A stretch of DNA of 64,000 nt from Chryseobacterium lacus. Lineage in GTDB: Bacteria > Bacteroidota > Bacteroidia > Flavobacteriales > Weeksellaceae. This document shows, piece by piece, positions 4,486 through 53,426 of the stretch. Made by a program: the position numbers and the translations under genes. The stretch covers positions 248,001-312,000 of the forward strand of contig NZ_QPIE01000003.1 in the NCBI RefSeq assembly GCF_003336205.1, in the 5' to 3' direction. Every line of letters begins with the position of its first letter. Position 1 is the stretch's first letter. The notes beneath the pieces were generated by a model that ran no database searches, was not told the origin of the DNA, and worked only from the letters and a program-made list of their open reading frames with translations.

Positions 4486-4492
4486 AAAAGAA

Positions 4493-4518
4493 ATCTCTCC
4501 TTTGATGAGAGGAGAGAT
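4493..4518 (-). terminator. intrinsic terminator after accD
   Basis: A perfect 9-bp inverted repeat (ATCTCTCCT / AGGAGAGAT) has an 8-base loop. On the minus strand it is followed by TTCTTTT. It sits between the accD stop and the start of the next minus-strand gene, whose ATG is only 7 bases further on. Confidence 0.65.
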
Positions 4519-52018: not shown

Positions 52019-52049
52019 TTGCAGGATCGGTTCAAAAAAATTATTTTTG
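52019..52049 (+). promoter_or_regulatory. lysA promoter (-33 TTG, -7 TATTTTTG)
   Basis: TTG at 52019-52021 and TATTTTTG at 52042-52049 are separated by 20 bases, inside the range reported for flavobacterial promoters. Transcription would start near 52056, about 17 bases before the leader ORF. Confidence 0.6.
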
Positions 52050-52072
52050 ACAAAATTTATAAGCATTACATA

Positions 52073-52150
52073 ATGTCTGCCGTTGTTACATTCAAAAAAG
52101 TTTCTTCAAAGGGAAAAAAACACTTCTTTAAAGGAATTTCTGTAACATAA
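52073..52150 (+). CDS. lysine-rich leader peptide of lysA (putative)
   Basis: This 25-codon ORF begins with ATG at 52073 and stops with TAA at 52148. Six of its 25 residues are lysine (positions 8, 9, 13, 15, 16, 20; codons between 52094 and 52132). It lies between the promoter and an intrinsic terminator in front of lysA. The product is too short to have a likely function by itself. I read it as a sensor ORF whose translation controls termination. The caveat is that AAA codons are frequent in AT-rich DNA. Confidence 0.65.
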   Translation: MSAVVTFKKVSSKGKKHFFKGISVT

Positions 52151-52214
52151 GGTCTGGTGTTTTGGAAGTAATCGTAATCGTATAGGCAGACTCATTTGGG
52201 GTCTGTTTTTTTTT
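52151..52214 (+). promoter_or_regulatory. attenuator: antiterminator and intrinsic terminator before lysA
   Basis: The terminator stem is CAGACTC (52187-52193) with GGGTCTG (52199-52205), loop ATTTG, followed by nine T (52206-52214); lysA starts at 52218. The hexamer GGTCTG also occurs at 52151-52156, directly after the leader stop, and can pair with CAGACT (52187-52192). The two structures exclude each other. A ribosome at the leader stop would cover the first hexamer and allow termination. One stalled at the lysine codons would leave it free. Confidence 0.7.
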
Positions 52215-52217
52215 AAA

Positions 52218-53426
52218 ATGATCAATATGACAAATAGAAATTTATTAAAAATTGCCGAAGAATTCGGGACTCCTGTTTATGTGTATGATGCAGAAAGCAT
52301 TAAAGTTCAATATGAAAAACTAACTTCTTCGTTTCACCGGAATACCCGGTTTTTCTATGCTGCAAAAGCACTCACCAATATTAATATCCTGAAATATGTG
52401 AACAACTTAGGAGCGGGATTGGATTGTGTTTCCATTAACGAAGTGAAACTTGGGTTAAAAGCAGGTTTTCCGTCTCATAAAATCCTGTTTACGCCAAACT
52501 GTGTAGATCTTGCAGAAATAGAAGAGGCGATGGAGCTGAAAGTGCATATTAATATCGACAATATTTCAATTCTGGAACAGTTCGGGAACCGATATGCAGG
52601 CAGTTATCCTATTTTCGTGCGGATCAATCCGCATATTTTTGCAGGTGGAAATTATAAAATTTCAACAGGGCATATCGATTCCAAATTCGGGATTTCCATT
52701 CATCAGTTGCGACATATTGAGCGGATTATGAATTCTACAGGCCTCAGAATTGAAGGTTTGCATATGCACACCGGAAGCGAAATTAAAGATCCCGATGTTT
52801 TCCTGCAAGGATTGGATATTATGTTTGAACTTTCTGAGCATTTTCCTGAGCTGAAATATATTGATATGGGAAGCGGTTTCAAAGTACCTTATCAAAAAGA
52901 TGATCTGGAAACTGACGTACCGAGTCTTGGCAAAAAAGTAGATCACGCTCTGAAGGAATTTAGCAAAAAAACAGGAAAAAAAGTAGATCTCTGGTTCGAA
53001 CCGGGAAAATTTCTCGTCAGCAAATCCGGGCATTTTCTGGTGAAAGCCAATGTAATAAAACATACGACGGCGACGGTTTTTGCGGGTGTCAATTCGGGGT
53101 TCAATCATCTTATTCGTCCCATGTTTTATGATTCGTATCACGTTATTGAAAATCTTTCCAATCCTAAAGGGACAGAACGAATTTATACGGTGGTGGGCAA
53201 TATTTGCGAGACGGACACTTTTGCTTGGGACAGAAAAATAACGGAGGTTCGGGAAGGCGATATTTTGGTTTTCCGGAATGCCGGAGCGTATGGTTTTGAA
53301 ATGAGTTCCAATTTTAATTCCCGCTTGAAGCCTGCTGAAGTTTTATTTATCGAGGGCAAAGCAAAACTAATCCGGAAAAGGGAAGAGTTTGAGGATCTGC
53401 TGAAAAATCAGGTGGAAGTCCTCTGA
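52218..53426 (+). CDS. lysA: diaminopimelate decarboxylase
   Basis: This 402-residue PLP-dependent enzyme of the alanine racemase fold family converts meso-diaminopimelate to lysine in the last biosynthetic step. The PLP Lys is in FFYAAKALTN. Other motifs are GLHMHTGSEI, MGSGFKVPY, LWFEPGKFLVSK and CETDTFAWDR with the catalytic Cys. The start at 52218 has an ATG just beyond a T-tract; MTNRN at 52227 is an alternative. It is the only lysine gene in the window, and the preceding leader suggests control by lysine supply. Confidence 0.95.
   Translation: MINMTNRNLLKIAEEFGTPVYVYDAESIKVQYEKLTSSFHRNTRFFYAAKALTNINILKYVNNLGAGLDCVSINEVKLGLKAGFPSHKILFTPNCVDLAEIEEAMELKVHINIDNISILEQFGNRYAGSYPIFVRINPHIFAGGNYKISTGHIDSKFGISIHQLRHIERIMNSTGLRIEGLHMHTGSEIKDPDVFLQGLDIMFELSEHFPELKYIDMGSGFKVPYQKDDLETDVPSLGKKVDHALKEFSKKTGKKVDLWFEPGKFLVSKSGHFLVKANVIKHTTATVFAGVNSGFNHLIRPMFYDSYHVIENLSNPKGTERIYTVVGNICETDTFAWDRKITEVREGDILVFRNAGAYGFEMSSNFNSRLKPAEVLFIEGKAKLIRKREEFEDLLKNQVEVL

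Follow-up and report, generated by a model that had tools for sequence, protein, structure and literature searches.

A putative lysine-specific leader-peptide attenuator upstream of lysA in Chryseobacterium lacus and other Weeksellaceae

Introduction

The classic attenuators that operate through a leader peptide, those of the enterobacterial type, precede the trp, his, leu, ilv, phe, and thr operons. Lysine biosynthesis is usually taken to be controlled by the L-box riboswitch, by repressors, or by T-boxes, and the ribosomes of Bacteroidota do not rely on Shine-Dalgarno sequences.

Several described or proposed systems invite comparison with the locus examined here. In Flavobacterium psychrophilum, which belongs to the same phylum and to another family of the same order, transcript mapping has yielded strong indications of leader-peptide attenuation before operons for amino-acid biosynthesis (PMC9723704); the underlying idea is the same, and the main text of that work names neither lysine nor lysA. 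The LEU element of Actinobacteria and candidate leaders of trp, ilv, leu, and cys genes (PMC1262725) come, like the present case, from comparative prediction, beyond the Proteobacteria, of leader peptides that serve amino acid genes. The same survey reports that lysine operons lack a conserved upstream RNA structure. SEP5 of Sinorhizobium meliloti is a proposed leader peptide with six Thr and three Lys codons (PMC10117765) that shares with the lysA leader its Lys codons and a position before a gene that the authors of that study connect with aspartate metabolism, but it is dominated by Thr codons, is alphaproteobacterial, and does not precede lysA. The lysQ gene of Lactococcus is cited among histidyl-tRNA-dependent cases and not among lysine-dependent ones (PMC4833913). 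Finally, the lysine riboswitch (L-box, RF00168) likewise has a terminator at its end and regulates lysine genes in other organisms, but its aptamer binds lysine directly.

Here, a leader upstream of lysA is described in a 64,000-nucleotide stretch of the Chryseobacterium lacus genome (contig NZ_QPIE01000003.1, positions 248,001 to 312,000; the whole stretch is termed the window and all coordinates refer to it) and in relatives of the family Weeksellaceae. As in the trp, his, leu, ilv, phe, and thr attenuators, a short open reading frame (ORF) rich in codons for the end product contains a hairpin, antiterminator and terminator are mutually exclusive, and the terminator stands directly before a biosynthetic gene. 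Unlike the enterobacterial systems, the lysA module concerns lysine, precedes a single late gene, and has its antiterminator segment at the stop codon of the leader; moreover, the leader is unrelated in sequence, and initiation of the Shine-Dalgarno type is not expected in this phylum. Comparative sequence analysis leads us to consider it likely, with a probability of about 0.86, that in Weeksellaceae a ribosome-mediated transcription attenuator makes expression of lysA depend on charged lysyl-tRNA.

No lysine leader peptide and no lysA attenuator were found in searches of the open-access literature, and in this sense leader-peptide attenuation specific for lysine appears new. A preliminary description of the locus had likewise known of no lysine leader for lysA. 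Leader peptides as such, however, are not new for the group, and the claim to novelty is softened because PMC9723704 predicts leaders for amino-acid operons of F. psychrophilum, left unnamed in its main text.

The lysA leader of the window

The lysA gene, encoding diaminopimelate decarboxylase, extends from 52218 to 53426 on the forward strand, and this identity, already assigned in the preliminary description, is confirmed by a match to TIGR01048 (score 374.1 bits, cut-off 297.9). Its actual start is probably the ATG at 52227 rather than the one at 52218, as the alignment with nearly all relatives begins at residue 4. Upstream on the same strand, a flavobacterial-type promoter is predicted from the sequence at 52019 to 52049, comprising TTG (52019-52021), a 20-nt spacer, and TATTTTTG (52042-52049), the last a match to the TAnnTTTG consensus box described for flavobacterial promoters (PMC9723704); the TTTTG of this box is kept across an alignment of 32 leaders. 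The leader ORF (52073-52150) has an ATG start and 25 codons, encodes MSAVVTFKKVSSKGKKHFFKGISVT, and carries Lys codons at 52094, 52097, 52109, 52115, 52118, and 52130 (codons 8, 9, 13, 15, 16, and 20). Within it, RNAalifold applied to the 32 leaders places a hairpin at 52110 to 52129 (AGGGAA..../....TTCTTT), which is probably a pause hairpin. The 5' segment of the putative antiterminator, GGTCTG (52151-52156), abuts the leader stop codon and has its pairing partner at 52187-52192, inside the terminator 5' arm AGGCAGACTC (52184-52193), which is thus common to antiterminator and terminator. The terminator as a whole (52184-52214) reads AGGCAGACTC-ATTTG-GGGTCTGTTT followed by a T run, with the 3' arm and T run at 52199-52214. 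Inspection of the sequence between terminator and lysA revealed no promoter for lysA.

Promoter, ORF, the six Lys codons, GGTCTG, and hairpin all lie where the preliminary description had put them. The terminator it reported is present with its T run to 52214, but the 5' arm is 10 nt long, beginning at 52184, and the interval of 3 bases given between terminator and lysA holds for the ATG at 52218; a start at 52227 places 12 bases between the end of the T run and lysA.

As a separate observation, the start of the leader at 52073-52083 (AUGUCUGCC) contains GUCUGCC, the complement of GGCAGAC in the terminator arm and a third copy of the GTCTG word. In the genus of the window, this copy may compete with the antiterminator.

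Taken by itself, the locus of the window is only suggestive, because 3.0% of the dinucleotide-shuffled versions of the intergenic region contain an equally Lys-rich ORF with an ATG start (at least six Lys and at least 20% Lys). The earlier caution that AAA codons arise by chance in AT-rich DNA is therefore fair for one locus, but it is overcome by comparison with relatives, among which conservation of the module is, judged from the alignments, far beyond chance. The 6-bp antiterminator of the window is no better than in shuffles (mean z -0.54). Of the window's 65 ORFs that reach 130 amino acids or more, just two have a terminator in the preceding 90 bases, namely lysA and one more, whose hairpin comes shortly after the stop codon of an upstream gene. 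On the reverse strand at 4492 to 4518, an ordinary-looking terminator-like hairpin stands just before a DUF6973 gene and some 40 nt past the point where an upstream, accD-like gene ends with its stop codon.

Proposed mechanism

From the sequences we infer a course of pausing, stalling, antitermination, and response to lysine in which the coupling of transcription and translation in Bacteroidota is an assumption of the attenuation model. RNA polymerase would start about 20 bases upstream of the short, Lys-codon-rich ORF, and the hairpin inside the ORF would probably make it pause, letting the ribosome catch up. When lysine is plentiful, the ribosome would reach the leader stop codon and cover the segment just behind it (GGTCTG in the window), whereupon the terminator hairpin would form and transcription would end before lysA. 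Under lysine shortage, the ribosome would stall on an upstream Lys codon and the segment would remain free to pair with the terminator 5' arm, allowing transcription to continue into lysA. With the ribosome edge assumed at 12 nt, following PMC4833913, geometry and predicted folds place the antiterminator segment 3-9 nt past that edge when the last core Lys codon is in the A site, and place it under the ribosome when the latter stands at the leader stop codon. The leader ORF, lying between promoter and lysA, would have to be translated, and the codon-level selection described below fits this.

Occurrence among relatives

The comparison covered 110 lysA loci, taken from relatives and from a set of 80 named genomes that includes Chryseobacterium, Epilithonimonas, Kaistella, Cloacibacterium, and further genera. 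In 67 of these loci, lysA is preceded by a homologous leader ORF (23 to 31 codons, five to nine of them for Lys), and all 67 have a counterpart of the terminator shortly before lysA, with standard base pairs at seven core positions in every case. The leader start codon of one locus (L015, genome G027) is TTG. Examples of the encoded peptides are MQNFKQNKTGKKGAVKFSKVWNI (Chryseobacterium), MQYFKQSKIGKKGAVRFSKVWNV (Epilithonimonas), MNVLKSIKKVASKGKKFFSKENSVD (Kaistella yonginensis), and MNAILKIKSTSSKGKKHFPKAKKWSYSKELQ (Cloacibacterium rupense).

A hidden Markov model (HMM) of the peptide gave a single strong match per genome (E of 1.5e-4 or lower) in 51 of 148 Weeksellaceae genomes, a set that overlaps the named genomes and so is no independent sample, and the next-best matches per genome had E values of 0.01 or worse. 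The match in the window's own genome had an E value of 1.1e-7, and each of the 30 strong matches whose genomic context was examined lies before lysA. Across 246 genomes from the order, clear matches were confined to the family of the window. Further, a covariance model (R1) built from 32 leaders retrieved one additional leader, in genome G014 (E = 5.9e-12), directly before lysA. The genus of this genome is absent from the R1 alignment, making it a hold-out, and its leader encodes MPTLSSKQIKISKKGIKPFSKDFVLS and has the same inner hairpin, the same terminator, and a segment capable of pairing behind the stop codon; the module therefore occurs in at least eight genera. The reading of the locus as a lysine attenuator, first put forward in the preliminary description together with a proposal to align upstream regions, gains support from this comparison, in which the short ORF with its Lys codons is conserved and the antiterminator and terminator segments are conserved and partly covarying.

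A regulon extending beyond lysA was considered and rejected, as the peptide HMM and the RNA model each give one real match per genome, the rest being noise. Additionally, no such leader was found upstream of dapA or aspartokinase in the window's genome, and therefore only the last step of lysine synthesis would be controlled. With regard to other amino acids, hisG was not found in this same genome, which is rated 99.96% complete, and the organism is possibly a histidine auxotroph.

Selection on the reading frame

The ratio pN/pS is 0.37 for 36 distinct leaders of Chryseobacterium and Epilithonimonas and 0.60 for 12 leaders of the Kaistella and window type. In the latter set, six codon positions are invariant, five of them Lys and one Gly, and AAA and AAG are exchanged at four of the five invariant Lys positions. 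Judged from these alignments, the Lys codons are conserved as an amino acid, and selection acts on both the reading frame and Lys. In one group of Chryseobacterium, Gln has taken the place of Lys at position 8 and position 7 has become Lys, leaving the Lys count unchanged; a third of the Chryseobacterium and Epilithonimonas set has Arg instead of Lys at position 16. The A AAA AAG heptamer of the Chryseobacterium leader was considered as a site of programmed frameshifting and rejected, being disrupted in relatives by GGTAAAAAG, GGTAAGAAG, and GGAAAGAAG.

Conservation of the peptide reaches well beyond Lys (K-G-x3-F-S-K, KVWN), which, together with pN/pS values below 1, speaks for an ORF that is an independent small-protein gene, or for a trans-acting small RNA with its own terminator, lysA then being expressed by read-through and free of control by lysine. 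There is precedent for trans action in rnTrpL and peTrpL of Sinorhizobium, an attenuator RNA and its peptide (PMC7298713). Such an origin of the conservation seems quite unlikely to us, as the covarying hairpin occupies the positions of the conserved non-Lys residues. K-G-x3-F-S-K is conserved because the inner hairpin covers that stretch of RNA, which explains the motif better than a functional peptide signature does; in Kaistella haifensis and Kaistella montana, F-F-S has changed to L-S-T, yet seven of the eight hairpin pairs are retained. Moreover, the ORF is always single copy and always adjoins lysA, and the terminator lies between a few and about 25 bases before lysA, an interval into which a second promoter would not fit. 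We also regard it as unlikely that the leader RNA or peptide of Weeksellaceae is a dual-function lysine sensor that, beyond attenuation, acts in trans or as a sequence-specific arrest peptide.

Arrest of the ribosome by the nascent chain, as in SecM or TnaC, where stalling would come from the peptide sequence itself in response to lysine or another signal and not from starvation for charged tRNA-Lys, could draw on the conserved non-Lys residues near the C terminus, for example KVWN in Chryseobacterium and Epilithonimonas. These C-terminal residues differ between genera, however (KVWN, KANSVD, KGISVT, KKPV), and a strict arrest peptide is less likely for that reason. In the predicted RNA fold, the pairing partners of the KVWN codons are codons 3-6, and Lys and the RNA hairpin alone are common to all leaders. 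The probability of an arrest peptide of this kind is accordingly put very low, and attenuation through the Lys codons is preferred.

RNA structures

For the 32 aligned leaders, RNAalifold predicts two helices, one being the inner hairpin of the ORF and the other the terminator. Compensatory double changes affect 7 of their 13 pairs. The inner hairpin is weak in the species of the window and has 8 bp in most relatives. Across 41 distinct ungapped cores, 93.9% of its cells are paired, compared with at most 69% when the helix is slid by 1-3 columns, and its covariation of 0.355 (0.217 in shuffled alignments) was reached by none of 500 shuffles. In nearly all leader-bearing species, the antiterminator segment starts at most about 3 nt from where the stop codon ends; in Cloacibacterium, it lies inside the last codons of the ORF. 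It can pair with the terminator 5' arm in every leader-bearing relative, a pairing that is retained throughout with only modest covariation. Duplex energies calculated across clades were discarded as a test of antiterminator covariation, being uninformative because GAG/CTC is common to most clades.

An extra helix is predicted in Chryseobacterium and Epilithonimonas, where AUGCAA at the leader start is complementary to UUGCAU or UUGCGU behind the stop codon. In locus L111 both sides are altered (AUGCCA with UGGCGU), with pairing intact as assessed by eye, and in G027 a long helix links the leader start to the antiterminator segment in the predicted fold. This helix resembles the 1:2 helix of trp in the manner of a protector helix and, on the handful of sequences available, would favor termination in an untranslated leader.

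A structured, covarying RNA with a terminator before a lysine gene also raises the question of whether the leader is a lysine-binding riboswitch or a protein-bound terminator, the ORF being incidental. This too appears very unlikely. The leader matched no Rfam family, and no L-box (RF00168) was detected in the window or in 120 Weeksellaceae genomes, the latter in a search whose controls (Escherichia coli, Bacillus subtilis, Thermotoga maritima, and Lactococcus lactis) were all positive. The conserved RNA consists of two simple hairpins and lacks a complex aptamer core. Moreover, the reading frame evolves under selection, and the antiterminator tracks the stop codon in its position.

Presence and absence of the module

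The gene order of HerA-like ATPase, DnaQ-type exonuclease, and lysA is identical in loci with and without the module. The intergenic region before lysA mostly measures about 210-265 nt where the module is present and 69-176 or 353-382 nt in most loci where it is absent. ORF and terminator occur together, with no alignable relative having the terminator and lacking the ORF, once L042, which ends at a contig end, and L025 and L029, which have unrelated hairpins farther upstream, are set aside as exceptions. The pattern that the preliminary description named as contradicting attenuation, a terminator kept after loss of the ORF or its Lys codons, was seen in no alignable relative. The hairpin as a mere terminator of the upstream exonuclease gene, with the Lys-rich ORF as AT-rich noise, can appeal to the 3% of shuffles with an equally Lys-rich ORF and to an upstream gene on the same strand, but it has a negligible probability given that leaderless relatives with the same exonuclease before lysA also lack the terminator and that ORF and hairpin, both conserved in at least eight genera, appear and vanish jointly.

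On a tree of LysA, the distribution of the module requires at least 14 changes, 5 of which are forced by well supported branches, and the module has therefore been lost repeatedly as a whole or, less likely, gained repeatedly. Its absence from lysA in many close relatives makes it dispensable. Seven Chryseobacterium loci without a leader (L014, L061, L066, L068, L082, L089, and L095) have mutually similar regions of 350-380 nt before lysA that differ from the module and contain a promoter-like TACCTTTG box.

Implications

A lysine leader peptide would extend the classic list of amino acids with such leaders by one, and the lysA module would represent a multi-genus case of leader-peptide attenuation in Bacteroidota that is supported by covariation. 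Closely related species, among which the entire module has repeatedly been lost, supply natural controls. The module would also offer a ready test of whether the coupling of transcription and translation in Bacteroidota is tight enough for attenuation.
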